From positions 1 through 64,000 of IMG/VR virus record IMGVR_UViG_3300035698_021037: a stretch of 64,000 bases of DNA; one strand, 5' to 3'. This document shows, one piece after another, positions 25,596 through 43,012 of the stretch. Both the position numbers and the translations under genes were made by a program. Source of the stretch: a virus. The notes beneath the pieces were generated by a model that worked only from the letters and a program-made list of their open reading frames with translations, was not told the origin of the DNA and made no database searches. Position 1 is the stretch's first letter; each line of letters opens with the position of its first letter.

Positions 25596-26882
25596 TTAGG
25601 CCTCTGGATACTCTTCGTGAGTGCCACGCCTGTTTTTACGCCCTTCCGCATCAGGGATGATACCGTCGTAGTACCAATCGAGTTTATACCCGTGCTGTCG
25701 AAGAGCTTCGCCCAGCGCCGCATCCCCACCATTATGGTTAAGACGTTTATCCGGCCAATCCAGTTCTTTGACAACCGTAGCGTCCATTGCGAACCATGCC
25801 CCAAGAATAAAGTCCACCTTCTTATAGCCTTTGGCGCGCATTCGCTCATCCGGATGATCAGCAAACGGAATACATTTGAACCAAGAAGCCCGCTGCATCC
25901 ACTTTTGATATCCCTGCGTGACGTGTACGTAGAGAGGTTTTCCATAGCAAGCGTAGCCTTGAGGGCGTCTATTGGAAATACGATGAGACAACTTTTGCAA
26001 CCAATCACCTTCCTTGACATATGAATCGTCATCAAACCAGACGATCCAGGGTGAGACGTTGTCGGCGAACATCTTACGCATGAGAGGATACTTGTTGACG
26101 TTTTTGGGCTCGATATAGATCTTGACATCATCTACTTGTGTCTTTATTGTTTCAAGCCACGTCAATGTCTCCTGACAGACTTCGTTACAGCCGATACGCA
26201 ACGCGTAGGAGCCTGGTGGAGTATTAGCGATGATACTGGAGACGCAACGGAAATGAAGGTTGGTAAAGTTTCCGTAAAGCAGAACGTAGATCTCCACAGG
26301 CGGTAAGATATGTTTAAGCTCAGGATAGGTCTGTAGCAGCGTTACTGTATCCGGACCACCTGTTCGTTGCTGTACTTGATTCTCAGATTGAACTACCGGA
26401 GTAGAAGAAACAACCAACGGAGGAAGTTGATTCAACGCTTCTTCTCCTTGCTTTCTCATAATTTCTTCTTCACCTTTACGCGCAGCGCTAACTTCTTGCC
26501 ATGAAACTCCTTTTTTATCCATAGGCTTCTTGGTGATCACTACTCCAGATTCAAGTCGTACCTGATCTGGATATTCCGAACGCGCGCATTCCGCACAAAG
26601 CACACGCCGCCGGCCGATGTCCCAGAAGCTCTCCTTTGTTTTCAAAGGTTTTCCACACTTACCGCAAGGCTGCTCACCTGTCTCGAGTGGCCTATTGACA
26701 GGTACAAGCTTCCCGGCCTCGGACGGAGAATCCAACTCTCCCAGTCTTTTGGACGCGCAATCGGCGCATACGATCGTCAGATTACCCATGTCACGATACG
26801 CGTTTCCTCGAATATCCTTGGAACATCCCGCGCACACCGCTGTGTCTTCAGAAGCTATCCTAAAAGATTCCAAGCTACCCAT
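25596..26882 (-). CDS. Glycosyltransferase (GT2-like) with two N-terminal zinc ribbons
   Basis: About 428 residues from ATG 26882, with GGAG upstream and an eight-base overlap with the previous stop; the frame extends further upstream only through a Lys-rich stretch. Two related four-cysteine modules (CAGC...CADC and CGKC...CAEC, residues about 17-105) look like zinc ribbons. The C-terminal domain is GT-A-like: YVLLYGNFTNLHFRC near 210 starts it and WFDDDSY near 280 gives the metal-binding DxD. It would transfer a sugar from a nucleotide donor. It is the last gene of the sugar-transfer island. The zinc ribbons may target it to a protein or nucleic-acid acceptor. Confidence 0.8.
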   Translation of the reverse strand: MGSLESFRIASEDTAVCAGCSKDIRGNAYRDMGNLTIVCADCASKRLGELDSPSEAGKLVPVNRPLETGEQPCGKCGKPLKTKESFWDIGRRRVLCAECARSEYPDQVRLESGVVITKKPMDKKGVSWQEVSAARKGEEEIMRKQGEEALNQLPPLVVSSTPVVQSENQVQQRTGGPDTVTLLQTYPELKHILPPVEIYVLLYGNFTNLHFRCVSSIIANTPPGSYALRIGCNEVCQETLTWLETIKTQVDDVKIYIEPKNVNKYPLMRKMFADNVSPWIVWFDDDSYVKEGDWLQKLSHRISNRRPQGYACYGKPLYVHVTQGYQKWMQRASWFKCIPFADHPDERMRAKGYKKVDFILGAWFAMDATVVKELDWPDKRLNHNGGDAALGEALRQHGYKLDWYYDGIIPDAEGRKNRRGTHEEYPEA

Positions 26883-27402
26883 CGGTTTTTTCTCCTTCTT
26901 CTTCTTCTGTTTTCGCCCTATAATAACGAAGACTGTCATAGAGATCCGCCATGCCTAGCTCTCCGGCGGTACGGAGTAACATCGCTTCCATCTTTCCATC
27001 GTAACCCCAACGAGTTCTACCTGCTGAAATGGATTCAATAATCTTGCCTTTACTGATTTTACGTGTAGCCGCTTTCCAATCACAGAGCATCTCAATGAGC
27101 TGCAAGAATGACGCGCGCTCAAAGAATTTAGTTTCGTGCTCTGGGTGGTGATCATTGAATTCATAGTGATGATCAAGCGCAGGTTTCATCTTACGTAGAT
27201 TATCTTTGTACTCCTTGCTGAGATACTCTATATGCTTTAACTTCCGAGTATACTGAGAAAAAATAGGCCACTCTCCCTCACCAAACTTCGAAAGGTCATG
27301 GGTTATTGCTCGCCATATAAGCTTCCAGCAAACATTGACGATGTAATAGAGAACCCAGAACTTATGTGACATGATGGAGAACCTTGCATGGATGCTAAAC
27401 AT
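26875..27402 (-). CDS. DUF5662-family protein
   Basis: About 175 residues from ATG 27402, which has GGAAGAGGAAGAG directly upstream; a TTG eight codons earlier opens the frame but has no site. The pattern HDLSKFGEGEW, then LDHHYEFNDHHPEHE, then MLCDWKAA matches the DUF5662 family found in phages and bacteria. Its conserved His/Asp residues suggest a metal-binding helical fold, perhaps hydrolytic; the family's function is unknown. It lies within the sugar-transfer island. The gap 27403-27578 before it shows no convincing gene. Confidence 0.75.
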   Translation of the reverse strand: MFSIHARFSIMSHKFWVLYYIVNVCWKLIWRAITHDLSKFGEGEWPIFSQYTRKLKHIEYLSKEYKDNLRKMKPALDHHYEFNDHHPEHETKFFERASFLQLIEMLCDWKAATRKISKGKIIESISAGRTRWGYDGKMEAMLLRTAGELGMADLYDSLRYYRAKTEEEEGEKTDG

Positions 27403-27578
27403 TCTCTTCCTCTTCCTTGCTTTCAACGATTTTTATTGGGTGGTCCGTATCAACTAGCTTAAGCGTAGTCTCTTACCTATTTTTACAACCAAACAACAAA
27501 TGCAATCCAGAGGATATGCAAGTCGCCAATCAGATGCGCGTAGATCCAGTGCAGTTGATTCTTACCTCTGTAATGGCG

Positions 27579-28586
27579 TTACTTACCTGGGAAGGTCAAG
27601 ATACCATCCTCGTAGTAGCTCATAACGCATTTGTAAACCAGCTCAGGCTCAATCATTGCGAGACAGCTAGGTATAATCGCTCCGTTATCCAAGAAAGGCG
27701 CCTTACACTTCTCTTTCTCTTTATCAGATACGATCTTGCTCTTCCAACATCCACCTATCTTGCAGCACTCAAGCTGACCACAGGTATGAATAAAACGATG
27801 AGGGATGAAAAGATCCGGCGTTTGAGGTTTCCAGCCTGGAATGCCTCGGCGCATGTTGACTTCACGATTGTTCTCTGTATAAGCCTCCCACCACCACGGC
27901 TCCCTCCCGCCAGCTACAACGACGCAGGGACGGTTAAATGCGGCCGCGATATGCATTAGACAAGTCACTACGCTCATAACACCGTCTGAGTGATAGATAA
28001 GCTTCATCAGATCCCTGAAGCGTGTCTTACCTACCAAATCAATGGCCCCCTTCATGCGTGGATGACAGTGGCCACTATCGCCTACCTGAACGCAGAGAAT
28101 ATTTTGCTCGGCCAGCATATCAACAACGCGTTGCCATCTAGCAGGGTTCCACCACTTAGCGGTGAAATCATATTTACCTCCGGAAGCCATCACCCAGTAG
28201 TTCTCCTGGAACGGCCTCTCAGTCTTCTCCTCATCCGTAAGGTGTAGATCCGGCCGAAACTCTGTCAGCACCACCTTCTCGCTACCCTGTGAGCCGTCTA
28301 GACCAAGCTTGACGTTCATATCGTCGATGAAGCCCCACATGAAATGAACACGTTCTTGATTAGAGTGGTGGATAAGCGGGTAATTCATCTTGATGGCACG
28401 AGGTTTTGGGGTATCAGGTAGAACGTCCACGATATATGGGTTACCTCGCCATATATCCTTCGTGACGGTTTTTATTGCAATTTGATACTTATTTGGGTGT
28501 CGTCTAACCAAATCTCGAATAGCTGCAGACATGACGACAAAGTCTCCAGGACTTTGTTTGTTGAACAAAAGAATAGGTTCTGGCAT
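27579..28586 (-). CDS. Glycosyltransferase family 9-like (heptosyltransferase-type)
   Basis: 335 residues. LLFNKQSPGDFVVMSAAIRDLVRRHP at the start is the family 9 N-terminal pattern (GD-x(2)-x-S-x-ALRDL). A second Rossmann-like half follows, with GGKYDFTAKWWNPARWQRVVD, VQVGDSG and HSDGVMSVVTCLMHIAAAFNRPCVVVAGGREP, the region that binds ADP-sugar in heptosyltransferases. It should be a GT-B sugar transferase. A metal-like Cys/His cluster (HTCGQLECCKIGGCW) lies near the C-terminus. AGGAGG precedes the ATG, and a good promoter lies in the short upstream gap. Confidence 0.8.
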   Translation of the reverse strand: MPEPILLFNKQSPGDFVVMSAAIRDLVRRHPNKYQIAIKTVTKDIWRGNPYIVDVLPDTPKPRAIKMNYPLIHHSNQERVHFMWGFIDDMNVKLGLDGSQGSEKVVLTEFRPDLHLTDEEKTERPFQENYWVMASGGKYDFTAKWWNPARWQRVVDMLAEQNILCVQVGDSGHCHPRMKGAIDLVGKTRFRDLMKLIYHSDGVMSVVTCLMHIAAAFNRPCVVVAGGREPWWWEAYTENNREVNMRRGIPGWKPQTPDLFIPHRFIHTCGQLECCKIGGCWKSKIVSDKEKEKCKAPFLDNGAIIPSCLAMIEPELVYKCVMSYYEDGILTFPGK

Positions 28587-28612
28587 GATTCCTCCTTATT
28601 GTGGTTGTTTCG

Positions 28613-28641: not shown

Positions 28642-28645
28642 GAGT

Positions 28646-29365
28646 CTAAGCATCAAACATACGACGGAATTCCACGCGAGGAAAGGCCTTTAACTTTCCA
28701 CCTATTCCGCCGTTTAAGATAACGATGCCATGATCTTCGCTGTACTTACGCACTATCTCATAAGATCGAAGCGCCTGAGACATAAACTTAGACTGTGATC
28801 GAAGACGTTTAGCGGACACTTTTGGTAGATCATAGGCGTGTGCATCTCCCGCAGGGCATGTACAGTCGCACCCAAGCAGGACAATAGGGTTACATCCAAG
28901 ATACATGGCAAGGGGTATGGCGATATCAATAACTACGGTACCGGAGAGCATAACATCTCGAACAACGTCCAAATTATGATTAAATGCTCCGGCAATCCTC
29001 CGGCCAAATCGGACGATTTTAAGAAGATTCTTTGCTGTATAGCCGAACGTCTTATATGCTCCCTCTCCAAGTACAACGTGAGTATCTATAGATGATAATA
29101 TCTTGTATATGTCTTTCGCCGGAGCGGCGGCGTCTAGGGCGCAGTGATAGGGGCAGATAAATCCGTGAGGCGCAGTAATCAAGTAGGCTCGATTGACACC
29201 AATCGTGACCTCTGACTGTAAAGGAGTCAAATCCATAAATCTCAAGGAGGGACCAGAGCCTATAATGAAACAGCGAGATCCCTTATGGGAATCTTTTATC
29301 CATGCATGCTTAGGCGAAGCGCGATCGCCAGCCGCTTCTTGAATTCTTTGTATAAGGTTACTCAA
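28646..29365 (-). CDS. DUF115-like glycosyltransferase
   Basis: 239 residues. CFIIGSGPSLRFMDL near residue 32 is the GxGPSL nucleotide-sugar motif of DUF115 (motility-associated factor glycosyltransferases). GVNRAYL follows, and IDIAIPLAMYLGCNPIVLLGCDC near 145-165 matches the second conserved region of this fold. Family members attach nonulosonic acids or related sugars to proteins such as flagellin. The start appears to be TTG 29365, overlapping the stop of the neighbouring gene; no nearer ATG fits. It is a paralogue of the gene upstream. Confidence 0.75.
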   Translation of the reverse strand: MSNLIQRIQEAAGDRASPKHAWIKDSHKGSRCFIIGSGPSLRFMDLTPLQSEVTIGVNRAYLITAPHGFICPYHCALDAAAPAKDIYKILSSIDTHVVLGEGAYKTFGYTAKNLLKIVRFGRRIAGAFNHNLDVVRDVMLSGTVVIDIAIPLAMYLGCNPIVLLGCDCTCPAGDAHAYDLPKVSAKRLRSQSKFMSQALRSYEIVRKYSEDHGIVILNGGIGGKLKAFPRVEFRRMFDA

Positions 29366-30005
29366 GATTTGGTATCGAATTAAAAAGAACTCGTGGATAA
29401 GCGTTCAATAGACCACCAGGGCCCGCATTGAGTACAATCTTTCCTTTAGCCTGTGAACAGCGACGAACAACTTTATGCGCTCTTATCAACTGCATCTGTA
29501 ATGTTTTAGTCATTACCGCTTTTGGTTGTCCGGCATAACCCGAGCGATCGCAATCGCAACCAAGGAGATAAACGGGGTTACACCCCATGTAAAACGCTGA
29601 AGAAATCGCTAAGTCTATGATTACAGAACCGGATAAAGATTTATAAGGTACTTCATCAATGTTCCAGTGAAACACGTCATTCCACTTAGACCGATTTCTA
29701 AAGTATTGAACAACTTTAACTAGATTCGGATGTGAATATCCGTGTCGAGCATACACTATTCCGGATAAAACAATACCTGTATCTTTCAACTTTGGATACT
29801 CTTCAGCAAGCCGATGTTTGCAAGAAGCGGTAGGATCTCCGGCACAAACTAGCGTAGGCGTTACTCCGAATAGTTCTAAAACATGAAATCCGCTGTCGGC
29901 TGCAATTACAATTTCATTTTTGAGTTTGGACAGATCGACGCGTAATAACGAAGGACCGTTACCACAAACAAAAGCTCTTTGATTTAAATGGCTATCCCTT
30001 TCCAT
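29358..30005 (-). CDS. DUF115-like glycosyltransferase, paralogue
   Basis: About 215 residues from ATG 30005, with GGAG about ten bases upstream. AFVCGNGPSLLRVDL at the start is again the GxGPSL motif; IAADSGFHVLELFGVTP and IDLAISSAFYMGCNPVYLLGCDCDRSG match the paralogue downstream region by region. The two genes probably arose by tandem duplication. A DUF115-type sugar transfer to a protein acceptor is likely. It overlaps the three-domain gene upstream by 14 bases. Confidence 0.75.
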   Translation of the reverse strand: MERDSHLNQRAFVCGNGPSLLRVDLSKLKNEIVIAADSGFHVLELFGVTPTLVCAGDPTASCKHRLAEEYPKLKDTGIVLSGIVYARHGYSHPNLVKVVQYFRNRSKWNDVFHWNIDEVPYKSLSGSVIIDLAISSAFYMGCNPVYLLGCDCDRSGYAGQPKAVMTKTLQMQLIRAHKVVRRCSQAKGKIVLNAGPGGLLNAYPRVLFNSIPNLE

Positions 30006-32166
30006 CTTTAGTAACTCCTTGCTTGATGGGATTCCAACCAAGATTAAGGAATGCGGGTAACGTCTTCGTATACAAAATATTTCTTCTGCCGGGCTTAAGA
30101 GCCAATGAAGAACCAGGAGACGTATCCTTCAAAAATTTCAATCCGGGGCCTTTTCCTCTTACAACGGCTGGACGTCCACAGGCGCATTTCTCCATTGCCA
30201 AACATACTGTCACGTCGTCCATAGTATGATCGCCAAACAAATCGTGAGCTGTGTCCCAGTAGTTAACCTTACCAATAGTTTCTTGTATGGCAGCGCGCGG
30301 GGCCATCATTCCACAAGGAGATACCATGTCTACATACATCGCGCGGTGCTCATTCAGCGTATGACTATGAAACTCCTTTCGCGTACGATAATGGTTGAAA
30401 GGATAATTGAACGCCCATCCCCAAAGTCCTAAGACATTATTTGGGAATACTCTACTGGTTTCCAGTAATGCGCTAATACCATCATCTGTGATAACGCACT
30501 CGTCGTCACAATACATGACATAAGGAGTTCGCACCATTCCAGCTAGGGCAAATCGTTGCCACAGCCCGAAGTTGATAGAGCATTGGAAGGATACCTCTGT
30601 ATGCGCTGGTACCGCCGCGTTTTCATTACACCATACCCAGATATGCTTGAAGCCGCGATTGTAAAAGGAATCGACAACCTGCTGAATCGTTTGGCGTTTC
30701 CATGACAGAATGAAAACCGTAACGTCATCCTTCGGTGTCGACAAAACTTCAGATTTTGCTGAAACAGCCTGGAGTGTAGGTGTAGAAATTTCCAAAACCT
30801 TATTCTCCTCTTCCATCTCTTTTTCTTTTTCAAGCATATCTGGGTGCGTAAGGCTAAACATCCGACGGACACTAGCAGCGTCTGTACACTCTTGGATAGT
30901 TAATTGTCTACTATGCATAAAAGCAAAGAACTTACGCGCGCGGTGTATATCGATATTATTAGGGTTGACTACCGATGCGCGAATTGTACTACATTCATTG
31001 ACCACCTTGTTTCCGGTAAACCAGCCTTTACCAAGAGTGAATATTGGAGTACCTAACATCTGCGCTGTAAAAATCGTCGTGGAATTTATAGCTATCATCC
31101 TGCTACAATTTTCCAACAGGTAAGAGAGAACCGATGTGTTCTGATTACCCATTGAAAGGTTCTTTACCACGCAATGATGCTCTCCGCAATCGGGTACACC
31201 TTCCAGTGCACGATCAAATGGGTGGGGCTTGATAACCACAAACTTACCCGCTAATCTCATCTCATTGATAATATCTCGAGCTACTCGGCTTTGATCTCGG
31301 CGGGCTGCAGGGGCATCTCGAAGCAGAACTTGGTCACCTGTTCTTTGTAGAATCAGAAGATCAAATTGTTTAGGTAGCTTGTTCAGGTTGGCTATATCCA
31401 GATAGGATTTACCTTTTTCCGCATCAGCATGTACGCCATCTTCCATACCTGTGATATATTTCTCAGACTCTTCGGCGGCCGCTTTTTGCAAAGGGTTGTT
31501 CATCAGCACGTCGAAGTTACCAGGCACAGAGGAATCCGCATTGTCCCCTACGGTATCAAAGATTGAGGAAGTGTAATGATCCCACACACCGAAATCCATG
31601 ATCAGCTTTCGAATGCCCTTCTCTTGAATAATCTTATCAACCTCTTTACACCAACCCAGTTTGTATAGGCGCTGCCAGGTGATAATAAGATCGAAGTGTT
31701 CCTTCTGAAGTCTTTGGATTGCCTCATCTTTCCATTGTCCCTCGCCCCGACGAAGTACAGATACGTCAAAATTCATACTATCCAATGTCTTGATAATATT
31801 ACGAACAGCGCCTTTGTCTCCCCAAGGCATGACAAGAATACGACGTCCGCCAGCGTAGGGCTTTCTTGCTGTAGAGGTACAAAATGGACATGCTTCACAG
31901 CGAATACCCCAAGCTTCACCATCTTTCATACCTGGTTGTGCGCATTCGTAGAGTACTTCACGCCGTATTTTACCTCCGCAGCAGGTATGATCTTTATGAC
32001 TTTTTTCAGCCCCACGATAGCTACAAGGAGGAAGGATCCTGATTTTAACCTTATTCCCCAAATCCTTAAACTTCGGCCCTTCTCTTATAGCTTCTCGTTT
32101 TTCAAAGTCTTTTTTGGCGATTCGCATACGATCTAAGAATGTCTTTCCTTCGTTTTCCGGCGCCAT
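29992..32166 (-). CDS. Multidomain glycosyltransferase
   Basis: 724 residues. An N-terminal Cys/His region (CCGG...CAQ...CEACPFC, about 60-115) may bind zinc. Residues about 125-430 resemble capsule-type or glycerophosphotransferase-like GT-B enzymes: VVIKPHPFD near 315 and NSTTIFTAQMLGTPIFTLG near 368. After a charged linker, residues about 490-700 are a GT2-like domain: FILSWKRQTIQQVVDSFY near 490 and MYCDDECV near 565 as the metal-binding motif. One protein may therefore add two sugars in succession. It leads the sugar-transfer island; GGAG lies before the ATG. Confidence 0.75.
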   Translation of the reverse strand: MAPENEGKTFLDRMRIAKKDFEKREAIREGPKFKDLGNKVKIRILPPCSYRGAEKSHKDHTCCGGKIRREVLYECAQPGMKDGEAWGIRCEACPFCTSTARKPYAGGRRILVMPWGDKGAVRNIIKTLDSMNFDVSVLRRGEGQWKDEAIQRLQKEHFDLIITWQRLYKLGWCKEVDKIIQEKGIRKLIMDFGVWDHYTSSIFDTVGDNADSSVPGNFDVLMNNPLQKAAAEESEKYITGMEDGVHADAEKGKSYLDIANLNKLPKQFDLLILQRTGDQVLLRDAPAARRDQSRVARDIINEMRLAGKFVVIKPHPFDRALEGVPDCGEHHCVVKNLSMGNQNTSVLSYLLENCSRMIAINSTTIFTAQMLGTPIFTLGKGWFTGNKVVNECSTIRASVVNPNNIDIHRARKFFAFMHSRQLTIQECTDAASVRRMFSLTHPDMLEKEKEMEEENKVLEISTPTLQAVSAKSEVLSTPKDDVTVFILSWKRQTIQQVVDSFYNRGFKHIWVWCNENAAVPAHTEVSFQCSINFGLWQRFALAGMVRTPYVMYCDDECVITDDGISALLETSRVFPNNVLGLWGWAFNYPFNHYRTRKEFHSHTLNEHRAMYVDMVSPCGMMAPRAAIQETIGKVNYWDTAHDLFGDHTMDDVTVCLAMEKCACGRPAVVRGKGPGLKFLKDTSPGSSLALKPGRRNILYTKTLPAFLNLGWNPIKQGVTKDGKG

Positions 32167-32223: not shown

Positions 32224-32670
32224 TCAGGTCAGCTCTGGTAGCTCCTCTTTTGCCACAGCTACTCCAAGATCACAATCCATACCGTTTTTAACAGCCGCTA
32301 CTAAGAATTCACCGGCAGTAACAGCGTTGCTATACCTCTTCAGGTTACGAACACGATAAGAAGTCAAAGCTTTTATTCTTTCATTCGAAATGCTTTTCCA
32401 GCCAACAGCGATTAGCGCCGCTAAATTTCGCTGTATCAAAGCCTTTACCACGGGACATTTTTCTGTGAATCTATTTTCGTCTTCCGCACATTTCAAACAG
32501 GTATCGCTTGAAACGAATACTTTTCCAGCACAGGCTATATTCGACAACTTGCAGGTAACTATGTTTTCTGGAGTCATTTCTAGGTTAGGACATCCTAAAG
32601 CTTTTGCCTTCTCTGTAGTTTCCAAGATTTTCCTGCGTGTCTCTTCAAGACTCAGCCGTCGCTTTGTCAT
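32224..32670 (-). CDS. Hypothetical protein with Cys cluster
   Basis: 148 residues. Eight cysteines lie in the first two thirds (ALGCPN, VTCKLSNIACAG, DTCLKCAEDENRFTEKCP), suggesting one metal site. The rest is basic and helical (SISNERIKALTSYRVRNLKRYSNAV). It is not recognised. It lies at the downstream end of the appendage cluster, just before the sugar-transfer island, with AAGG before the ATG. A DNA-binding or metal-dependent accessory role is possible but unproven. Confidence 0.6.
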   Translation of the reverse strand: MTKRRLSLEETRRKILETTEKAKALGCPNLEMTPENIVTCKLSNIACAGKVFVSSDTCLKCAEDENRFTEKCPVVKALIQRNLAALIAVGWKSISNERIKALTSYRVRNLKRYSNAVTAGEFLVAAVKNGMDCDLGVAVAKEELPELT

Positions 32671-32703: not shown

Positions 32704-34275
32704 TTACGAGTCCGTACAACCTGCAGTACATAATCCTTCTGACGTAAAGGGACCGCTATGGATGCCATATTTCCAACACATATTAAACTCTTCGTCACAC
32801 GCGCAAGGTTTTACGTAGTCGCTGTAATTTTCAGGGGTAAGTAGTACACATTCGAGACCGATCCACTCACCCTCACCCTCACAGTTTGTAGAATCAAAAA
32901 ACTCTTCAATTCCAACGCAATACCATCCGTATTCAAAGCTTGTGCCTGGACTCGCACTTGGACTCGCACTTGGACTTGCACTTGGACTTGGACTTTTACT
33001 TGGGCTATGGATATGACTTTTACTCGGACTCTCGCTTGGACTAGAGATATGACTTGTACTTGGACTCGTACTTGGACTCTGGACAGTACTTAGGCTAGGA
33101 CTGGGGCTTAAACAATCCTCACTAATCAATGTCCATATCATATAGCATTTACTACCGTAATGCTCAAGATTAAGCTGATAGGAACATCCATCATCTTTAT
33201 CAATATCAGAGCACTCGGGACCTAGACCTTCGTTACAGTTTCTTGTCCACTTACCCGTACCATTATAATATAAAGTCCAAATAAATTCGGCGTTTACCTC
33301 ATTACAATCCTCCTCTGAAAGTGAAGAGATATTTGTAAGCTCCTCCCAACAGCATATTCCAGGCGCTGCGCTAGGCAATGAGAAGCTTGGCGTATCCAAA
33401 CCAGGAGACGAGCCAGCAGGGCTAGAACTTTCAGGACTAACGCTCGCCGAACTTGGTGTAGCCGGGCTTGGAGTGCCGGGGCCGGGCGTAAGACTCACGC
33501 CTGGACTTGATATTATTGGACTAGGAGGTACAGGAGATACCACGGGACTAGGCACCGCAGGGCTAGGCACAGAGATTATAGGACTTGGTACCGAGATTAC
33601 GGGACTCGGTATTGAGATTCCAGGACTTGGTACCGAGATTACAGGACTTGGTACCGAGATTACAGGACTTGGTACCGAGATTACGGGACTCGGTATTGAG
33701 ATTCCAGGACTTGGTACCGAGATTACAGGACTTGGTACCGAGATTACAGGACTCTTAACCGCAGGGCTAGAGATATCCGGGCTATCGATCGCAGGCGTAG
33801 TAGTAATGAAACACGCCTCTTCCCACTCTAAGGTAAACATCACCTGTGAACGACAACTTTGATTATCCGAACCATCTACGACAGAAAGTTTTTTCAGAGT
33901 ATGGCTACAGCTTGGACGCTCCGGGTTGATAATAAGAACTCGAGTTACAGGTATCTTCAGGTCGAACTTTATTGTAGGCTCACACCATCCTGTTTCTGGA
34001 TCCGGAGTGACCGAGACATCAAGCTGCGGATCACACGCTATCATAGATGAAGAGTATTCAAATGGAACCGACCATGTAGCCGTTGTCGATCCAATTCTCA
34101 TTTCGTAGCATCCGAAAAGAAAATCCGGAGGCTCTGGAATAGGAAAATCGAAGAACTCACCTTCCCAAATTGGTTCGGGGGGAGCTTCAACGAAACAGCT
34201 GGATAACAAGTTCCCCTCAATTGCAGGGATGCTTGGCATCGAACAACCGGATCTAGATGAAAAGGCTTCCGTCAT
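32704..34275 (-). CDS. Repeat-rich appendage protein (PSPVIS and SPS repeats)
   Basis: 523 residues. An N-terminal globular part (about 1-165) ends in CRSQVMFTLEW. Then come about a dozen seven-residue PSPVISV/PSPGISI units (residues about 170-245), Pro/Ser-rich linkers, a Cys-containing domain (about 310-385) and a second SPS/SPSAS array (about 390-450). The end (about 455-523) is another Cys-rich domain (CEGEGEWIGLEC...CACDEEFNMCWKYG). The pattern fits a long flexible fibre with small disulfide or metal-stabilised heads. It is the last of the serine-rich appendage genes and directly precedes the sugar-transfer island. Confidence 0.7.
   Translation of the reverse strand: MTEAFSSRSGCSMPSIPAIEGNLLSSCFVEAPPEPIWEGEFFDFPIPEPPDFLFGCYEMRIGSTTATWSVPFEYSSSMIACDPQLDVSVTPDPETGWCEPTIKFDLKIPVTRVLIINPERPSCSHTLKKLSVVDGSDNQSCRSQVMFTLEWEEACFITTTPAIDSPDISSPAVKSPVISVPSPVISVPSPGISIPSPVISVPSPVISVPSPVISVPSPGISIPSPVISVPSPIISVPSPAVPSPVVSPVPPSPIISSPGVSLTPGPGTPSPATPSSASVSPESSSPAGSSPGLDTPSFSLPSAAPGICCWEELTNISSLSEEDCNEVNAEFIWTLYYNGTGKWTRNCNEGLGPECSDIDKDDGCSYQLNLEHYGSKCYMIWTLISEDCLSPSPSLSTVQSPSTSPSTSHISSPSESPSKSHIHSPSKSPSPSASPSASPSASPGTSFEYGWYCVGIEEFFDSTNCEGEGEWIGLECVLLTPENYSDYVKPCACDEEFNMCWKYGIHSGPFTSEGLCTAGCTDS
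33581..33748. repeat. 21-base tandem repeat with exact 84-base duplication
   Basis: Eight units of 21 bases follow one another in the order A-B-A-A, A-B-A-A, where A begins GGACTTGGTACC and B begins GGACTCGGTATT (plus strand). The two 84-base blocks (33581-33664 and 33665-33748) are identical. They encode the seven-residue PSP repeats of the appendage protein; degenerate units flank them. Identity at every base implies a very recent duplication or ongoing repeat slippage. Confidence 0.9.
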
Positions 34276-34292: not shown

Positions 34293-35834
34293 TTACGACG
34301 TACACAGGTTCGTTTCTAGCTGAACAGTTAGTAGGTATCCAGAGCTGTCTGGAACGATCCTGACACCTCTACTTCCTGTAAGGCTGAAAGCTGTAGATTC
34401 AATTCCTACGCCGTTGATATCTGTAATGAAACCGTCACAGGCTTCGCACGCCTGTCCGCTAGAAAGCCCATATTCGTCAATAACAATATCCTTACAGGTC
34501 TCTCCACGCCCATAGCCAAGATTCGCATTGATCTCAACCGAGTTATCAGCATCGCTTATGATTAGCTCGCAATTGTAACCCTCGCGAAGAATTACATGAT
34601 CTTTTATGTTACGTGTTTGAAAAAACGTGGTTTCTTCTCCGGCATAAGAACTACTGCTGCCGCATAAAACCGGACATCTTCTTGCGTCATTGGCAAGCGT
34701 AATTCCTGTTACGTAGCTACTTGCCAACGTTTGAATACACGCTGGTTCAACCTCAGAAAACATGTAATAGTATTCGCCATCCGCGAGCGCCGCATACTCT
34801 GAAAGATCGCCTGTCACAAGAAACGCTCGTCCCATAAGGTTGGTAGAGACAGTAACAGACGATACACTGCTTGACGAAGAGCTGCGACTTTCACTACTGG
34901 ACGAAGAACCTAATGGCAAGGAACTCTCTGAAGATGAAGATGAAAAAGAAACAGAACTCATTGAATCGCTACTACTTGATGAGCTCATACTATTGGAGCT
35001 TGAGCTTGAACTAGATAAAGAGGAAGAAGATACTCCAACCCATTCAGCGTCTACGTACTGGGTTTCGCCAAAACAGACGTCTGATAAATCCCGAGTAAAC
35101 GTGAACTCCCACTCTAAAAATCCTGGAGCGTTGGATCTAAAATCAAATTCCAGGCTATTTCCAGCTTTCACAACTCTGTTGAGATACACAGTGTGTAAGG
35201 AGACATCGAATTCAGAATCAATTCCCATGATGAAGCCGGCGTCGACAATACCTCGACCATCAAACGGGAAGGACTGTTCAATGTCAGACGCGTGCTTTGC
35301 TTCAATGTACACCGCGAATATTTTTGTTTTCGCGGCCCCAGTAACAGACATATTGGCGAAATAGTATCGTATTGCGTTGAAATCAGCTACAGATATTTCT
35401 TTGTTGACTGTAAGTCTATGCCACTGCGCAACACCATCTCCGACTATATCCAGGTCATGATTCGTGAAGTCAGATTCCTGCGCACGTATGCGTGTTGTAT
35501 TACCTAGGGGTACCAAGGAGTAAACATAAACAGTGAACCCTATCACAGGCTTTGTGATGTCTTCAGCTGTGAAAGTAACGATTGACGGAACTGAGTTGGA
35601 CCAAACATAATCTGAAATGTTCGGAATTGACGGGTACCTCGTTGTATCGTCGATACAGCCCCAGGGCGATAGCGCCGGCGGATAAGCGTTCCATCCCAGG
35701 CTAAATACTAAAGTGTCTGGCGCTACGTCTGTATGCTCTCCTACCCACGCAGCAGACGACGAGCTTGACGATCCCCGAGTTACAAAGGGATAGTCAATAT
35801 GATCATTCCAGTTGTACCAATCCATACCTGGCAT
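34293..35834 (-). CDS. Fibre-like virion protein with serine tract (paralogue series, member 1)
   Basis: 513 residues. The N-terminus has the W-x(5)-YPF motif (WNDHIDYPF) shared with the next four genes, followed by a short serine run. Residues about 60-260 form a beta-rich domain. A serine tract of about 60 residues (268-328) is encoded by mixed codons. The C-terminal part has GVGIESTAFSLTGSRGV, the shared ING-type strand module (here DINGVGIE). It is probably a tail fibre or baseplate appendage. The ATG overlaps the upstream stop (TAATG). Confidence 0.65.
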   Translation of the reverse strand: MPGMDWYNWNDHIDYPFVTRGSSSSSSAAWVGEHTDVAPDTLVFSLGWNAYPPALSPWGCIDDTTRYPSIPNISDYVWSNSVPSIVTFTAEDITKPVIGFTVYVYSLVPLGNTTRIRAQESDFTNHDLDIVGDGVAQWHRLTVNKEISVADFNAIRYYFANMSVTGAAKTKIFAVYIEAKHASDIEQSFPFDGRGIVDAGFIMGIDSEFDVSLHTVYLNRVVKAGNSLEFDFRSNAPGFLEWEFTFTRDLSDVCFGETQYVDAEWVGVSSSSLSSSSSSSNSMSSSSSSDSMSSVSFSSSSSESSLPLGSSSSSESRSSSSSSVSSVTVSTNLMGRAFLVTGDLSEYAALADGEYYYMFSEVEPACIQTLASSYVTGITLANDARRCPVLCGSSSSYAGEETTFFQTRNIKDHVILREGYNCELIISDADNSVEINANLGYGRGETCKDIVIDEYGLSSGQACEACDGFITDINGVGIESTAFSLTGSRGVRIVPDSSGYLLTVQLETNLCTS

Positions 35835-36583
35835 TAGATATCTTTCTGTCCAACAAAGCTGATCTGCAGACCGTCAGTTGTCGGTATAAGCCTTAAGACC
35901 GTATCGCTGGCTAAGTTATCACCCGCCGTAATTGTGAATCTACCATCAATAGCTTTGATACCGTTAATTGTTCGCAACCCTTGAACACAACCACGTTCTT
36001 TTTCTTCTTCCTCACACAGCTTCCGTAAGTAATAGGGATCACCAACAATATCGAAGCGTATTGTTCCTTCATCCTCTCGTAATACAATACCATCATGGCC
36101 AACAAGAATCACCTCTCCTGTAAATACCGTCCCATCGGCGAGCACAATACTTTTTACACCCGCAGCAGGTTGTGGCGTGACTATAGAAGCGGCAAATTCT
36201 GTTTGAGCCTGTTCAAATTCATGAATACCAGGGATCCAGTTGATTAACGTCTGGAGTTTTTCCCACGTAGAAACAAGCACGCCGGCCGGCCGGGAATAAG
36301 TATCAACGAGCCGTATAAGATCAATCTCATAATTGAATTCAAAAGAGCCTGTCGCAATCTCTCCAGTACCGTCAGAGATAGTGATTTCCACGTTATCGTC
36401 GATCGTTACACGAGATAGAAATTGCCTGTAGCTACCCCCAATAGGGTAGATTCGCGCGTCAATAAATAGGTCTGTAGGAACAGTATCGCCTTCTGTATTA
36501 ATCAACGTAGCCGCATCCGTAAAAGGATACTTGATATACTCCGTCGAGTCTCTCCATTCCTGAAATAGATGTGCGCGAGCCAT
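35834..36583 (-). CDS. Fibre-like virion protein (paralogue series, member 2)
   Basis: 249 residues, the shortest and serine-poor member of the series. EWRDSTEYIKYPFTDAATL at the start and DLFIDARIYPIGG thereafter define the shared N-terminal domain. The C-terminal ~60 residues hold RTINGIKAIDGRFTITAGDN, the shared ING module. It therefore shows the minimal form of the family: N-terminal docking-like domain, beta-rich middle and ING module. GGAGG precedes the ATG. Confidence 0.65.
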   Translation of the reverse strand: MARAHLFQEWRDSTEYIKYPFTDAATLINTEGDTVPTDLFIDARIYPIGGSYRQFLSRVTIDDNVEITISDGTGEIATGSFEFNYEIDLIRLVDTYSRPAGVLVSTWEKLQTLINWIPGIHEFEQAQTEFAASIVTPQPAAGVKSIVLADGTVFTGEVILVGHDGIVLREDEGTIRFDIVGDPYYLRKLCEEEEKERGCVQGLRTINGIKAIDGRFTITAGDNLASDTVLRLIPTTDGLQISFVGQKDI

Positions 36584-36584
36584 C

Positions 36585-38747
36585 TTAGGTGTCCTCCAAA
36601 TACATGCAGTTAAAACTCAACTTACCGCCGCCGCCCGGATCTTCAACAAACTTAATTTTCATACCTCCGTTGTGAATGTAATTTGCTCCGCCACCTAGAG
36701 TAATCACAACAATTTGATCGGAAAAAGCTATTGGTAAATCCGTTGTTTCTGCGGTAACGTCTTCCCACAACAGCGTCGTATAGTTGTACAGTTTAAGCTT
36801 TACGTTATGCCCAATTGGAGCGATGAATAGATATTTAATGCTGATATCTTTACTATCCAAGTCAGGCAGATTATCGAATTCAAATTCCCAATCTATACCT
36901 GGTGACCCGATTACTTCAAATGTAGACGCATACTTCGCGTTATCGCAGTTATACAAATTAGCAATGCGGTTGTCACCGGTTTGAGCTCCCGTATTCACTA
37001 CATAACTCTTAGGCCACATCCATTTGATATCTTCACTAGATTCAGAAGAATCGCTACTGCTGCTATCGCTGCTGTCACTATCGGATGAGCTAAATGAACT
37101 GCTGGAGGAAGAGCTACTGGAGTAAGAACTACTACTTGACGGCATCGGGTCCTGACAGCCCCAGCCAATGTTATCGAATTCTGTATAGCTATCTACAGTA
37201 CCAATACCGAGCAACCCAGGAAGAGCGTCATCTGATAGATTTATTGTGGCGTAAAGAGTATCGAGCGCAGGGTAGTTGTAGACTTGTAATGTAATCTCTG
37301 TCGTTGTTGTTTGTGTAAGAGAAATCTGAATATAATAATCCGTGTCTGGCGCGAAGGATCCTAGAGCAACGTTTGCCGTACGCTCGAATCTAAATCCATA
37401 ACCTAACCCGTTTTCTCCGCCAGAACCTATCTCACTACTTCTATGTCCGATGAATACCTGCTGCATATAGTTTGACCCGTCGTACACTTGTTTCAGCGAT
37501 ATTCCAGCGAACCAGAAATCTGTATCTCCTTTAAAGCTAAAGATGAGAAATCCATTACCATCCGAATCATGGGTATTTATCACACCCTCTAAAATGTGAG
37601 TCCCTGATTTAGGGGCGCTTGCCGAGTGATAAAGACTGAATTGTGGGCCGGCAAAGGATTCACCGGATAGGCGCCGCGAACGCGCTAAGGTCCAATCACC
37701 TGTATTTTGGTCCCAATGCCACGGGATATTTGGAGGATCCCAATCCTCACAAATAAACTGAGCCGACCAGGATGAACTACTAGAGCTGTAGTCAGAGCTA
37801 CTAAATGATGCAGACGACAAAGAAGAACTACTGCTACAGCTTTTAGAAGAATAAGACCCTTCGCATACGTCTGAAGGCGCATAGGGCATCTGAAGAAAAT
37901 CGTCAATAAGATTAGTTTTGTCACAAACGTCAATGAGCCCTAACGGGTAATCCAGAATAATTCCACCACCGCCAACGATAGGAGCTACGCGTAATGGGTC
38001 AGGAAAATCAATCGCTAGTTCTCCATTTTCGTTGGGGATTACACCATTGATGTTCAAAAAAGGTTGCCGCGCACAGCTGTAACTATCCAAGCGACCGCCA
38101 CAATCTCCAGCGTATGTCCGTAGCGTATCCTTAGGATTATCCTCCAGATCAAGACCAACAAGAATGACGTCATGCAAAACACCGTCTATTAATCTTGAGC
38201 CGGATTCTACAAGTACAAGATCCTCTGTGCCTAACAGCGTTATTGAATTCTCGAGTTGATTAGTACCCTGTTCCTTCGTCAACGAGAGAACGGGCGGTAG
38301 AGTGTATGAACGGGCTACGCGAGGCAATAACATCGAAGCGTCCGGCGTATCAAAGCGTAAAGAAAACGCATCATTTTCATCAATACCGGAACCAAACGCT
38401 ACCCAACCGGCGACTCCGTCAGCCAAGGCTTCAATCGCATAGTTACGCCATTTCGTTGGGTTGACGACGGTAATAGCTGCGATAGGGCGAAATATTCCAG
38501 ATGATGCGCCACCGCAGAAAGGATGTTCATTTAGAGCCAAGAAAGTGACGGACACAACTGTAGATGAAACGACAACGGATGAGACGTATAAGTAACGCCC
38601 AAGGCTATCTGGAAAAGAGATATTGCAATCTACGATAATATCATTCGGCAGGAACACGCCGCCATGCCCCGCTAGTGACGCGTTGTCATCAAAGGGATAA
38701 TTCCTATTTTCATTTTTATTGTGCCACTCTTGCCGAATAATCGCCAC
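36585..38747 (-). CDS. Fibre-like virion protein with two serine tracts (member 3)
   Basis: 720 residues from a GTG start (AAAGGAA upstream). EWHNKNENRNYPFDDNASL is the shared N-terminal motif, and LNINGVIPNENGELAI near 235 the shared ING module. A first serine tract (about 296-326) leads to a beta-sandwich-like domain (about 330-535) that resembles a sugar-binding or laminin-like fold (DSDGNGFLIFSFKGD; LQVYNYPALDTL). A second tract (about 536-572) leads to a further beta-rich C-terminal domain. Receptor or surface binding by the two extra domains is likely. Confidence 0.65.
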   Translation of the reverse strand: MAIIRQEWHNKNENRNYPFDDNASLAGHGGVFLPNDIIVDCNISFPDSLGRYLYVSSVVVSSTVVSVTFLALNEHPFCGGASSGIFRPIAAITVVNPTKWRNYAIEALADGVAGWVAFGSGIDENDAFSLRFDTPDASMLLPRVARSYTLPPVLSLTKEQGTNQLENSITLLGTEDLVLVESGSRLIDGVLHDVILVGLDLEDNPKDTLRTYAGDCGGRLDSYSCARQPFLNINGVIPNENGELAIDFPDPLRVAPIVGGGGIILDYPLGLIDVCDKTNLIDDFLQMPYAPSDVCEGSYSSKSCSSSSSLSSASFSSSDYSSSSSSWSAQFICEDWDPPNIPWHWDQNTGDWTLARSRRLSGESFAGPQFSLYHSASAPKSGTHILEGVINTHDSDGNGFLIFSFKGDTDFWFAGISLKQVYDGSNYMQQVFIGHRSSEIGSGGENGLGYGFRFERTANVALGSFAPDTDYYIQISLTQTTTTEITLQVYNYPALDTLYATINLSDDALPGLLGIGTVDSYTEFDNIGWGCQDPMPSSSSSYSSSSSSSSSFSSSDSDSSDSSSSDSSESSEDIKWMWPKSYVVNTGAQTGDNRIANLYNCDNAKYASTFEVIGSPGIDWEFEFDNLPDLDSKDISIKYLFIAPIGHNVKLKLYNYTTLLWEDVTAETTDLPIAFSDQIVVITLGGGANYIHNGGMKIKFVEDPGGGGKLSFNCMYLEDT

Positions 38748-38750: not shown

Positions 38751-40163
38751 CTATTCCTTTTGAAGCGGAGGTAACAATTCAACAGTTTCAGAAATAGCAG
38801 ACGCTGACGTTACTGTGTCGCTTCCACTAATTGTACCTTGTACAGCTAAATTTATAGCTATTGTTGACCCAAGCCTAGATACACCTTCGTCATCATTTCT
38901 AAGCTCTAGCCCAAAAGTATAGCGCATCCAGCGTGTTCCTGCTAGATCTTCTGTAGTTGTAACTATCCACGTATGTCCCCAGATTCCTCCAGGGTCTACC
39001 TGTACAGTTCCAGCGCCATCTGAGGTGAATAACCCGGATTTATCCGAGTAGAGTCCAAGCATGGCGATAGATGGAGACGCGGAGAAGTAAAACCTAATTG
39101 GACCCTTTACATCGCAGGGTTGTGAGTTCGTAGCCATACCCATGACAAGCAACCCGAATCCAGGTTTCGGTATGATTTTTACTACAGCCTTCAAACCTAT
39201 CTCACGCGTAGCTTTCTGAGCCATCCATTCAGCTCGAAGTCTATTATATGTTGTTCGCAGCGCCTGTAACGTATTCGACATGTTTTTAGCACGATTCCAA
39301 AGTCCTTGAAGCGCTAAATACGTTTTGACGTAATCTTCACAGTCACAGCAAGGCCCACAGTCGTTGTGCAGTTTGAGCGCATGATCTACCACTAAAGCAT
39401 TACCACCGGAGTAAAGAGAAGGCCGTTCAATCCAGTAACAATCTTTTGGGATAATCCGCATATCTCCATCTACAGTAGACTGCCCGTTGATGGTGATTAG
39501 GGGCTGCGTGACTCCACTACACGGCTCTTTGTAAACACCAAGCCCTGCTCCGGTTTCGGCCGTGAACTCAACTTTCGTGGGATCACGCACTTCGTCCGTG
39601 TCTTCAAAAGGAATCTCTGGAAGCGCTATTCGTCCACCTTTGGTTTGTCCGGAGAGCGCTACTTCCGCGTTATAGCCACTACTTAACTGAATCTCATCGG
39701 TGAAATCCCATAGCGGTGTGACCAGCTTGTTAACACGCAAAGGCCTACGATAAAAGGTGGAGTCAGTCAGCCGAGCTCCTGCAGGAGATAAAGGGAAAGA
39801 GAAATCCGAGATGCGATCGGTGACGAGCGTAATACGACAAACTTCTGTTCCCTTAATCCATTCAATAACGCTCCACCGGCCATAGGAAGAGTATTTCGAT
39901 ATAACAGATCCCGTCGTACTATCGAAAAGCATGGTATAGTCGGTATCGCGTATCTTGATGTTGTAAGAGCTCCCAGACACGTCAACATGAAGATAATTAA
40001 GTAGCGCTGGATAAACACTGTCGTTTTCGTGCAACAGATAGAAATCAACAACAAGATTTTCCAAGCCAGAGGGGTCGCTAACCTTATTCAGAAAAGGATA
40101 AGGAATGGACATCCTTGAACTAAGAATACCTATAGAAGAGCTTGGAACTGTTGTTATTACCAT
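38751..40163 (-). CDS. Fibre-like virion protein (member 4)
   Basis: 470 residues. The shared N-terminal motif is weaker (SIPYPFLNKVSDPSGLENLVVDFYL). The ING module is at about 225 (ITINGQSTVDGDMRIIPKDC), followed by CGPCCDC, a Cys cluster, and a coiled-coil segment (VKTYLALQGLWNRAKNMSNTLQAL) that could form a trimer. The C-terminal domain is beta-rich. It has no long serine tract. Its ATG overlaps the stop of member 5 (TAATG). Confidence 0.65.
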   Translation of the reverse strand: MVITTVPSSSIGILSSRMSIPYPFLNKVSDPSGLENLVVDFYLLHENDSVYPALLNYLHVDVSGSSYNIKIRDTDYTMLFDSTTGSVISKYSSYGRWSVIEWIKGTEVCRITLVTDRISDFSFPLSPAGARLTDSTFYRRPLRVNKLVTPLWDFTDEIQLSSGYNAEVALSGQTKGGRIALPEIPFEDTDEVRDPTKVEFTAETGAGLGVYKEPCSGVTQPLITINGQSTVDGDMRIIPKDCYWIERPSLYSGGNALVVDHALKLHNDCGPCCDCEDYVKTYLALQGLWNRAKNMSNTLQALRTTYNRLRAEWMAQKATREIGLKAVVKIIPKPGFGLLVMGMATNSQPCDVKGPIRFYFSASPSIAMLGLYSDKSGLFTSDGAGTVQVDPGGIWGHTWIVTTTEDLAGTRWMRYTFGLELRNDDEGVSRLGSTIAINLAVQGTISGSDTVTSASAISETVELLPPLQKE

Positions 40164-41092
40164 TAAGTGCTACAAGGCAGTTCGCCGGTCTTAGACGCAA
40201 TCAAATTCGTTTGCATTTGAGAAATTGCGCCCTGTAACCGCGCCGCCAAGTTCTCCAAAGTTTGTACCTGGTTACCTACATGCTGCATTGCGCGTACAAC
40301 TTCAGCTAACTCATCGCAACCGCAGCAAGGCTTAGAACACTCATCATCAATAGTAATGGCGTTTTCGGCTGCGCTAATGACAACGCATTCCATACCAGCG
40401 AGAATAAAATTACCACTTTCATCAGGAGTTACACCGTTGATGGAAACAATAGGTGTCGCGTCTGAACTGTCAATACATTCACATTCCTGCGAAAGTCCGG
40501 CGCCTTGAATCGCATCAAACTGTATCTGTTGGGTGGCGCCAACCACAGAGTAAGACAATCTGAAGTTCGTTCCCGCTACAAACTGTACATCTCCCTGAAT
40601 AGGATCTGACTGTTCACTACCATTGACGAGGACAATTCCTGTAACCGCGCGAATGTCGGGACGTGTAGCACAAGCTTCAATACGCGCCCCAGTGACGTCG
40701 AATGACCAGCTACCGCTAGGTTGTAGAAGCAAGTTATCTAGAAAACCAAACGTGATCTTACCTATAGAATCACTGAAATCCCCATACCCTCTCAGGGGTA
40801 ACGTCTGGAAATTGACAAAGGTACTAAAGGCTACGCTGACAGATCCAATCGCTGTTCCGTTATATCCTAAAACGACGGTTACGCCTTCGCCAAAGATTGT
40901 AAGAGTTTTTATGTGAAATAGAGTGCTGTCAATCGTATCGTTGGTATGATACGGAAACACTAAGTCCACGAAAAAGTCATCAGGAATCCTAAAGGCTCCC
41001 GTGGTATCATACAAGGTAGCCGCCTCGGACAACGGATAATTACGATTAGCGTTAGTCGTTAACCAACCAGCATTCCAAATATCTGTAGCCAT
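40163..41092 (-). CDS. Fibre-like virion protein (member 5)
   Basis: 309 residues. It shows the clearest shared start, WLTTNANRNYPLSEAATL, followed by IPDDFFVDLVFPY. The ING module (VSINGVTPDESGNFILAG) lies near 215, then CSKPCCGCDE and a coiled coil (VRAMQHVGNQVQTLENLAARL). The Cys cluster plus coiled coil is nearly the same in member 4, so this pair is closest in the family. It ends after the coiled coil, so it may be an adaptor on which longer members are built. Confidence 0.65.
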   Translation of the reverse strand: MATDIWNAGWLTTNANRNYPLSEAATLYDTTGAFRIPDDFFVDLVFPYHTNDTIDSTLFHIKTLTIFGEGVTVVLGYNGTAIGSVSVAFSTFVNFQTLPLRGYGDFSDSIGKITFGFLDNLLLQPSGSWSFDVTGARIEACATRPDIRAVTGIVLVNGSEQSDPIQGDVQFVAGTNFRLSYSVVGATQQIQFDAIQGAGLSQECECIDSSDATPIVSINGVTPDESGNFILAGMECVVISAAENAITIDDECSKPCCGCDELAEVVRAMQHVGNQVQTLENLAARLQGAISQMQTNLIASKTGELPCST

Positions 41093-41110
41093 TGCTAAAG
41101 CTTTCCTTCA

Positions 41111-43012
41111 CTACGATCCCGAATGAGAGGAAGACGAAGAGCTTGAAGATAACGCCGATTCGATGAGATATCCTACGCGCATGATTCCAACTTCGCCCGA
41201 ATATCCATCACTCGCAGCTCTCTTTAATGAGAAGAAAACAACGTCACCCTCTTCAACATCGAACTGTGAGCTTTCGACTTCGATATATTGGTTAGCGGAT
41301 AAGGCGCCACAAAGCTGCGGTTTGATATTTCCAACAAGTTCAGTGTCTGTCAAAGGCAAATTCTTAGCGGTACAGCCCGTAGGCCTGTTAACGGTTCTAT
41401 ATGTGAAATCCATACCAGGTAGCGTGCCGGCCGCTCGCGCCATTACCCAAAACCATACCTTAAGCTTTGGAGAAGTAGGAAGACCACTCCTTGGGATCTC
41501 AACCTTACAACGAAGCTCAGAATCGAAACCAGTAGGCATCCCCAGATAAAATACAGCCTGAATCGTCTGTTCACGAACATTATCCAACCCAACGAGTTCT
41601 ATACCGCCTTCCTTTTGATCCGAACCAGGAATAACGGCGTCAATCGTTACTGTGCCTTGATACCCGGTAGCGACACTTCCGCGAGAGCCACTGATGTTAA
41701 CGTTTGATCCAGGCTTGATCTTTTCAACAACATACCCCTTGTTAGCCGTAAGGCCTGTAAAAGATTTGATGACCAGATCGCCGTCAACGGGTAAAGGAGC
41801 CTCTGAAAGCTCCAGGTCAATATCGAGATAAAGGTCACCGGAAGTAGCTGCGACTCCGCTGCAATTCGTAACCTCTAGCGCAGATCCATCAATGGGTCTC
41901 AAGCTTGTTACTACGGCATCACTTGTTTTGTAAACCATCTTGGTAAACCAGAGTGTCATTGACATCTGACTCAGGTCACCATGACCCGTCATGTAACTCA
42001 ACGGGGGCCCCTCTTCACAGGAACTGCTTGACCAGTAATGGGAGGAGCTGCTACTGGATGAAGATCCGTCTACTCCGCTAGACCAGCTAGAAGATGAGCT
42101 GTCACAAGGCTCAAATTCAGGAGGCCAAGGTCCGTGCCCATAACAGTCTTTCATCCACCAGATACCGTTGATATCAATTATGCAGGTTCCTGCCGCGCCA
42201 AGATCTACGGCATAGCCATTCTGATCAAGATAGACACTTCCGGCGGGTACGGGAGGCCATACGTTTTGTAGTTCGGGATGCATAGCCAGGTTGTACCCAA
42301 ACTTTGCCCCTTCTGGAGCCGTTCCACCAAAAACCGAGTTATCGGCGGGCAACCACCCAGGAACGTTTGGATTGACGTCCAATAAATGATGACGATCGCC
42401 GTATTCAAGACACGCGGCTAGGCCGGCAGGCTGCGCATACAGATCAAATCTATAATGGATATGTCCATCAAGCACATCTTTTGGCATCGGATTGATCAAC
42501 GCCGTGCTGGAATCCATGAGAGTCATCACAAAGACGCCCACAGGAGGGCGTGAGAGCGTCAATGTTCCTGCTGAGGTAGATCCTAGGTAATACTGCCCTG
42601 GAGTAGCTGTAGCCCCGCCCAGGGTCGTGGAGAAGTCAAAATCTTCCAGCAAGCCGGAGAGAATAACATCAGCAGTTGTGGCGCCACTCTTTGAAATGAC
42701 AATTCCAGAGACATACGCGCTATCTGATACGTGAACGATGCCTCCAGTAATCTCCGTAGTTGTGGTGGCCAGCGCTTTTTCATACCTCGCGTCCGTGGAA
42801 TTCCAATAAACTGGATTACCAATCTCCACGTCGGATTTTACAGCGACACTCCTATGATAGAGCGCCTGCCCTTCTGAGATTAACTCCAACATATCTTTCA
42901 GGTAATCCGTACGACCCATCAGCTGAGTCAGCGCACGGTTTGGCGTGGCTTGTCGTACCTGTTCTCCGTCAACTACCAGATCAATTTGATGTTCCCAAGG
43001 CGTTAATGCCAT
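41111..43012 (-). CDS. Virion appendage protein with serine tracts
   Basis: 633 residues. The N-terminus (about 1-200) has PWEHQIDLVVDGEQV and a region rich in short strands (GGIVHVSDSAYVSGIV), as in phage decoration or appendage proteins. An IDINGIWWMKD segment near 280 recalls the ING module of the neighbouring series. A serine/tryptophan tract (about 304-334) and a final serine run flank a C-terminal beta domain (about 340-620). GAGGAT lies before the ATG. Role: probable baseplate or fibre component. Confidence 0.6.
   Translation of the reverse strand: MALTPWEHQIDLVVDGEQVRQATPNRALTQLMGRTDYLKDMLELISEGQALYHRSVAVKSDVEIGNPVYWNSTDARYEKALATTTTEITGGIVHVSDSAYVSGIVISKSGATTADVILSGLLEDFDFSTTLGGATATPGQYYLGSTSAGTLTLSRPPVGVFVMTLMDSSTALINPMPKDVLDGHIHYRFDLYAQPAGLAACLEYGDRHHLLDVNPNVPGWLPADNSVFGGTAPEGAKFGYNLAMHPELQNVWPPVPAGSVYLDQNGYAVDLGAAGTCIIDINGIWWMKDCYGHGPWPPEFEPCDSSSSSWSSGVDGSSSSSSSSHYWSSSSCEEGPPLSYMTGHGDLSQMSMTLWFTKMVYKTSDAVVTSLRPIDGSALEVTNCSGVAATSGDLYLDIDLELSEAPLPVDGDLVIKSFTGLTANKGYVVEKIKPGSNVNISGSRGSVATGYQGTVTIDAVIPGSDQKEGGIELVGLDNVREQTIQAVFYLGMPTGFDSELRCKVEIPRSGLPTSPKLKVWFWVMARAAGTLPGMDFTYRTVNRPTGCTAKNLPLTDTELVGNIKPQLCGALSANQYIEVESSQFDVEEGDVVFFSLKRAASDGYSGEVGIMRVGYLIESALSSSSSSSSHSGS

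Follow-up and report, generated by a model that had tools for sequence, protein, structure and literature searches.

A glycosyltransferase island beside polyserine-bearing tail genes of a predicted Planctomycetota phage: a candidate virion O-glycosylation system

Virion glycosylation has been demonstrated for few phages. In the cluster F mycobacteriophages Che8 and Rita, as far as the work of Freeman et al. (2023) is related in PMC11256854 and PMC12619734, phage-encoded glycosyltransferases (GTs) have been linked to glycans at the C-termini of capsid and tail-tube proteins. Here we analyse a gene group that likewise encodes GTs, in a large uncultured phage: an island of five GT genes lying among genes for polyserine-bearing proteins in a 64,000-base stretch (the window), which comprises bases 1-64000 of the IMG/VR record IMGVR_UViG_3300035698_021037 (65,902 bases; the 65.9-kb contig is called G000 below). 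Unlike in those accounts of the mycobacteriophages, the putative acceptors are polyserine tracts of the fibres, of the sheath and of some small proteins, and the enzymes include a family 9 GT (GT9) accompanied by DUF115 proteins in a variable slot.

TibC is a serine O-heptosyltransferase that modifies Ser and not Thr (PMC4358343), and TibC/AAH enzymes (the BAHT family) act on serines of adhesins. The phage GT9 resembles them in its fold and in a C-terminal Cys4 finger of similar spacing (C339, C342, C358 and C370 in TibC; C275, C280, C294 and C308 here). However, it scores 29.8 bits with the BAHT model TIGR04414, whose cut-off of 200 was reached in none of the four genomes or records; the finger is not family-specific, and the TibC/AAH substrates are autotransporters rather than polyserine tracts. 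With the Maf/DUF115 flagellin glycosyltransferases the phages share the DUF115 core and, in one relative, nonulosonate genes, but the phage DUF115 proteins are single domains of 227-239 amino acids (aa), lack the full-length Maf/PseD architecture and match the NCBIfam PseD model only weakly, with 15.8 bits against a cut-off of 670. In Gram-positive bacteria, serine-rich repeat adhesins are encoded as a Ser-rich acceptor beside several accessory Gtf enzymes with variable extenders. That arrangement of Ser-rich protein genes, several GTs and variable extending enzymes recurs here, although no homologue of GtfA/B or SecA2 was seen and the presumed acceptor is a virion, not a secreted adhesin. A literature search of limited extent yielded no paper that deals with polyserine tracts and a GT9/DUF115 cassette together, or with Planctomycetota phages bearing such a system.

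Serine tracts and the glycosyltransferase island

The explanation that we favour, with moderate confidence, is that the island O-glycosylates serine tracts on the phage's own tail, possibly beginning with a heptose; the acceptor, the sugar, the order of addition and the purpose, perhaps shielding or mimicry, are what we infer from the gene content described below. GT9 would probably start the glycan on the polyserine tracts of the fibres, the sheath and a 172-aa protein, plausibly with a heptose taken from the ADP-heptose of the host. A multidomain GT and a zinc-ribbon GT2 would lengthen the chain, and the enzymes of the variable slot (DUF115 proteins here, a GT2 plus a methyltransferase in a relative) would add strain-specific caps, possibly nonulosonic acids. 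If so, the cassette would comprise several enzymes, act on defined acceptors and have a capping slot open to exchange; little is known of the phages of the presumed host phylum.

Two relatives of the window phage were found: G001 (IMGVR_UViG_3300035698_013504, 200,903 bases) and G002 (IMGVR_UViG_3300035698_016763, 35,505 bases). All three records may be fragments. A tailed myophage gene set (terminase, primase, helicases, baseplate wedge, sheath) is recognisable in the window contig, along which G001 is syntenic, most of the encoded proteins being about 50-80% identical. The host is probably a member of the Planctomycetota. When viral records were scanned for distant relatives of the terminase or the GTs, the G001 and G002 contigs alone came up, and a DUF115 scan of viral records found no relatives. 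Among 50,697 phage records no relative was detected of the four enzymes tested (the multidomain GT, GT9, one DUF115 protein and GT2). Isolated phages likewise gave none of a tract-bearing fibre protein, and the baseplate protein of Salmonella phage Arash is only 26% identical.

A first-pass annotation, made from the letters of the window, had placed five GT-like genes at 25596-32166. All five are open frames with GT-type Pfam matches, located between the tail-fibre genes and the terminase. Read in the direction of transcription, the order is Ser-rich presumed fibres, small Cys protein, multidomain GT, variable slot, GT9, (DUF5662), zinc-ribbon GT2 and the polyserine 172-aa protein (Table 1). 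The annotated adjacency to appendage genes was correct but needed amending, since polyserine genes flank the island on both sides, that of 24993-25511 included, and non-GT genes lie within it (DUF5662 at 26875-27426, the small Cys protein at 32224-32670). The succession of multidomain GT, GT9 and zinc-ribbon GT2 is kept in all three phages, at 57-58%, 76-79% and 62-64% identity, respectively.

Recomputed serine tracts far above chance occur in 24993-25511, 34293-35834, 36585-38747, 41111-43012, 60087-62936 (two tracts) and 63813-64859. The tracts previously described for the sheath and for the gene at the right edge were thus confirmed, the latter gene being complete in the full contig. Those ascribed to the whole of 32704-43012 hold for the three genes listed from that interval, whereas 32704-34275 is Ser/Pro repeat-rich and 35834-36583, 38751-40163 and 40163-41092 are tract-free. 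In G001, all eight open reading frames (ORFs) with runs of at least six serines (S6+) fall inside the virion module, which comprises 38 of the 240 ORFs (p=2e-7). Tract positions are retained in several orthologues while lengths vary. All six Ser codons are present in the tracts, at about genome frequencies, which argues that the tracts did not arise by slippage and are selected as protein. Microsatellite slippage was rejected as their origin on this codon mixture and on the lack of a clear excess of adjacent identical Ser codons (observed 0.145 against an expected 0.179 in G001, and 0.219 against 0.176 in the window contig).

GT9 and its relatives in Planctomycetota

The GT9 passes the Glyco_transf_9 (PF01075) cut-off, with 49.7 bits against 22. 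As a sequence profile it matched TibC best in the PDB (E 0.005), with WaaF at E 0.011; a larger profile of 23 sequences gave no match at E 0.01. The predicted fold, of predicted local distance difference test score (pLDDT) 85 and with the finger region poorly modelled, matches WaaF and TibC at E about 1e-10. Profile and fold comparison place the enzyme between the lipopolysaccharide (LPS) heptosyltransferases and TibC. For the multidomain GT, the predicted structure was of poor quality (pLDDT 34) and was set aside. The finger reads C274, C275, C280W, C294 and C308, and C275/C280/C294/C308 are kept in 42-43 of 43 sequences. The finger is not taken here as proof of a TibC-type enzyme, because control GT9s lacking polyserine neighbours, one of them WaaF-like, carry it too. 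In the GT9 tree the three phage enzymes form one long-branched group.

When genomes were scanned with the GT9 alignment, 32 loci were obtained; further copies from the same genomes raise the number to 40, counted by contig. These chromosomal relatives are 35-41% identical, and nearly all are in Planctomycetota. A polyserine ORF lay within about 10 kb at 22 of the 40 loci and in none of 40 random stretches from genomes of this kind (713 kb; Fisher p=8e-9), on the GT9 strand in 19 of 21 cases (p=2e-4); at more distant GT9 loci none was found (0/5). HldE-like heptose-kinase genes (PfkB plus CTP_transf_like) accompany 15 of the 40 loci, again against none of the 40 random stretches. This clustering of GT9, polyserine and HldE, independent of phage synteny, is our main reason for favouring a Ser-tract acceptor and heptose. 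Many of the neighbouring polyserine proteins are 1,300-2,250 aa long with YD/RHS-like repeats (one recognised by Pfam as DUF6531 and RHS_repeat, the rest by pattern). Methyltransferases of the FkbM or Methyltransf_24 type also occur nearby, as do a mannosyltransferase-like protein and, in one case, an OGT-like TPR-GT41 protein. Planctomycetota appear to have a related GT9-polyserine system directed at YD/RHS-like proteins of their own, and these clusters of GT9, HldE, methyltransferase and polyserine YD/RHS genes possibly represent an apparently undescribed system of protein O-glycosylation.

The GT9 of a Schlesneria bin (locus L107, 9404-10441) had the top score against the phage profile, 253 bits; it probably lies on a mobile element, because integrase-like and primase-like genes stand alongside. 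Beside another bacterial GT9 (locus L035, 14357-14761) a small Cys-rich protein (CVHRG...CETC...C...CVLC; one match in 468 ORFs) resembles the N-terminal, Cys-rich part of the multidomain GT of the phage.

The variable slot and a nonulosonate locus

In the window phage the slot is occupied by two DUF115 genes, in G002 by one DUF115 gene and one tandem DUF115 gene, and in G001 by genes for unrelated proteins containing GT2 and Methyltransf_24; the DUF115 protein of G001 sits outside the slot (G001 16241-17674). Both DUF115 proteins of the window pass the PF01973 cut-off of 34.6 bits, with 49.5 and 62.6 bits. One exchanged slot inside a fixed frame is how a variable glycan cap would be expected to look. 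At their N-termini the multidomain GT and the enzymes of the slot resemble one another in a short stretch (MSNLIQRIQEAAG, MGSLLDRIKDAAP, MSNIVERITAASS, MSKFTRRIQEAGD), of the pattern M-x-x-hydrophobic pair-x-R-I-x-x-A, on non-homologous enzymes (window 28646-32166; G001 104714-109342). With a motif model built from G000 and G002 only, three adjacent island enzymes of G001 ranked 1, 2 and 3 among 240 ORFs; rank 3 is an orthologue of a training sequence, and ranks 1 and 2 have no blastp similarity to the training sequences. On the simplest reading the motif would be a common docking site.

A second sugar locus lies at 166-177 kb of G001. It encodes a NeuB synthase (E 5e-59) and, adjoining it at 171756-173198, a CMP-sialate synthetase fused to an animal-type GT29 sialyltransferase domain (PDB 1eyr, E 2.5e-19; 2wnb, E 3.4e-7), as well as a formyltransferase-like protein, a polysaccharide deacetylase, radical SAM proteins and further GTs. 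The IMG/VR scan yielded the fused protein from G001 only, and isolated phages gave no match over its full length. Because this NeuB/CMP-sialate locus occurs together with DUF115 and GT29-type enzymes, a nonulosonate cap is plausible for G001. The nonulosonic acids guessed at in the first-pass annotation thereby gain ground from the relative; the window contig stops short of the corresponding region and so is silent on such genes.

A broader idea, which we advance tentatively and with some doubt, is that polyserine tracts form a dedicated, heptose-initiated O-glycan acceptor code common to YD/RHS-like proteins of Planctomycetota and to their phages. A clade of GT9 would heptosylate serine runs, and the phage copy of GT9, the exchangeable caps and, in G001, the nonulosonate pathway with its sialyltransferase-type enzyme would dress the tail in host-like glycans.

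Other targets of the enzymes

Virion O-glycosylation, the central proposal of the first-pass annotation, stands as the best-supported reading on the island order in three phages, the virion-confined tracts and the bacterial clusters. Several points weigh against it. The acceptor and donor of GT9 are putative: the enzyme matches LPS heptosyltransferases as well as it does TibC, and neither the finger nor the predicted fold separates protein from LPS transferases, the finger occurring in control GT9s away from polyserine genes. The tract proteins are assigned to the virion by synteny and two PHROG matches. No polyserine ORF was found at 18 of the 40 GT9 loci (several, not all, on short contigs), and the loci are not all phylogenetically independent, one genome (G016) supplying several. 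GT2 and the multidomain enzyme are without detectable relatives in the phage records searched, and a zinc-ribbon GT2 profile, in a search without positive control, matched nothing in 20 Planctomycetota genomes.

The enzymes could instead alter the LPS, or another envelope polysaccharide, of the host surface during infection and so exclude superinfecting phages, the tracts being unmodified flexible linkers and the adjacency that of a late operon. GT9 indeed scores equally well against LPS heptosyltransferases, the multidomain enzyme has a Capsule_synth-like domain, and elsewhere in bacteria a polyserine linker may be no more than a spacer, as in enzymes of Saccharophagus and Microbulbifer. We nevertheless consider a host surface acceptor unlikely: relatives of GT9 cluster with polyserine proteins in bacterial chromosomes, polyserine genes flank the phage island on both sides, and acyltransferase, flippase and membrane polymerase families were not met among the scanned proteins.

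Since GT9-polyserine-RHS clusters exist in Planctomycetota, a subverted host system in which the GTs act on the host's own polyserine/RHS proteins, not on virions, may also be envisaged. It appears quite improbable, given that the polyserine genes flanking the island are the phage's own and that the window contig has no recognised RHS gene.

Hypermodification of phage DNA, another alternative raised earlier, we regard as highly improbable. Viral DNA-modifying GTs are known (Pyle et al. 2024, as related in PMC12619734), but the thymidylate-synthase/hydroxymethylase family (PF00303) was matched in none of the three phage records, with working controls (matched in 9/14), which weakens this alternative; known DNA-modification GT families were absent among 83 scanned G001 proteins, and the island adjoins fibre genes, not replication genes. 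A TET/JBP search carries no weight here, as its positive controls gave no match. Finally, tracts and island might be functionally unrelated, their adjacency reflecting shared descent within the single phage lineage available and the target being another soluble or virion component, which is hardly credible beside the independent GT9-polyserine clustering in bacteria and a middle slot that is swapped while flanks and tracts stay.

Table 1. Features of the island and the neighbouring virion module in the window
Position	Strand	Feature	Basis
24993..25511	-	Polyserine protein, 172 aa, closes the island; N-terminal S7 and C-terminal tract (DNA 24996-25097)	Kept in both relatives
25596..26939	-	Double zinc-ribbon N-terminus and GT2 (Glyco_tranf_2_3, E 6.8e-9, DDD motif)	Pfam; relatives
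26875..27426	-	DUF5662 protein	Similar gene in G002; none called in G001
27579..28586	-	GT9 (E 4.1e-13), most conserved island enzyme	Pfam; relatives
28646..29365	-	MptE-like/DUF115 (E 5.3e-13), putative nonulosonate-type transferase, variable slot; shared N-terminal motif	Pfam
29358..30041	-	Second MptE-like/DUF115 gene (E 5e-17), variable slot	Pfam
29992..32166	-	Multidomain enzyme: Cys-rich N-terminus, Capsule_synth-like (E 5.2e-6), C-terminal CDDE/CDDD segment GT-A-like by eye	Pfam and inspection; relatives
32224..32670	-	Small Cys protein heading the island; C27, C40, C58, C61 invariant	Comparison with relatives
32704..34275	-	Ser/Thr/Pro repeat-rich presumed appendage protein, not polyserine; repeats vary between phages	Composition
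34293..35834	-	Presumed fibre protein, tract at DNA 34845-35039	Tract scan, synteny
35834..36583	-	Fibre paralogue, N-terminal YPF motif, no tract	Tract scan
36585..38747	-	Fibre paralogue, tracts at DNA 37761-37859 and 37029-37148	Tract scan
38751..40163	-	Fibre paralogue, no tract	Tract scan
40163..41092	-	Fibre paralogue, no tract	Tract scan
41111..43012	-	Appendage protein, tracts at DNA 42017-42082 and 41114-41164; positions kept in G001	Tract scan
45363..47003	-	Baseplate wedge protein (phrog_6), marks the module as tail	PHROG match
60087..62936	-	Tail sheath (phrog_279), tracts at DNA 62052-62111 and 61593-61643	PHROG match
63813..64000	-	Virion-module gene (63813-64859 in full contig), main tract past the window edge	Full contig

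The start of the zinc-ribbon GT2 gene is probably internal, near 26882, because its orthologues align from MGSLESF. No tRNA genes were found when looked for. The fibre genes of 34293-41092 are tandem paralogues with a common N-terminal YPF/NRNYP motif, tract-bearing and tract-free members being mixed. In G001, an 833-aa protein (66481-68982) combines a polyserine head, in which W/D/Y are spaced by about nine residues, with a LamG-like domain and a long array of CDEG-type Cys repeats, and the proteins of the first 70 kb (1-70 kb) include RNA polymerase subunit-like, tubulin/FtsZ-like and NADAR proteins.

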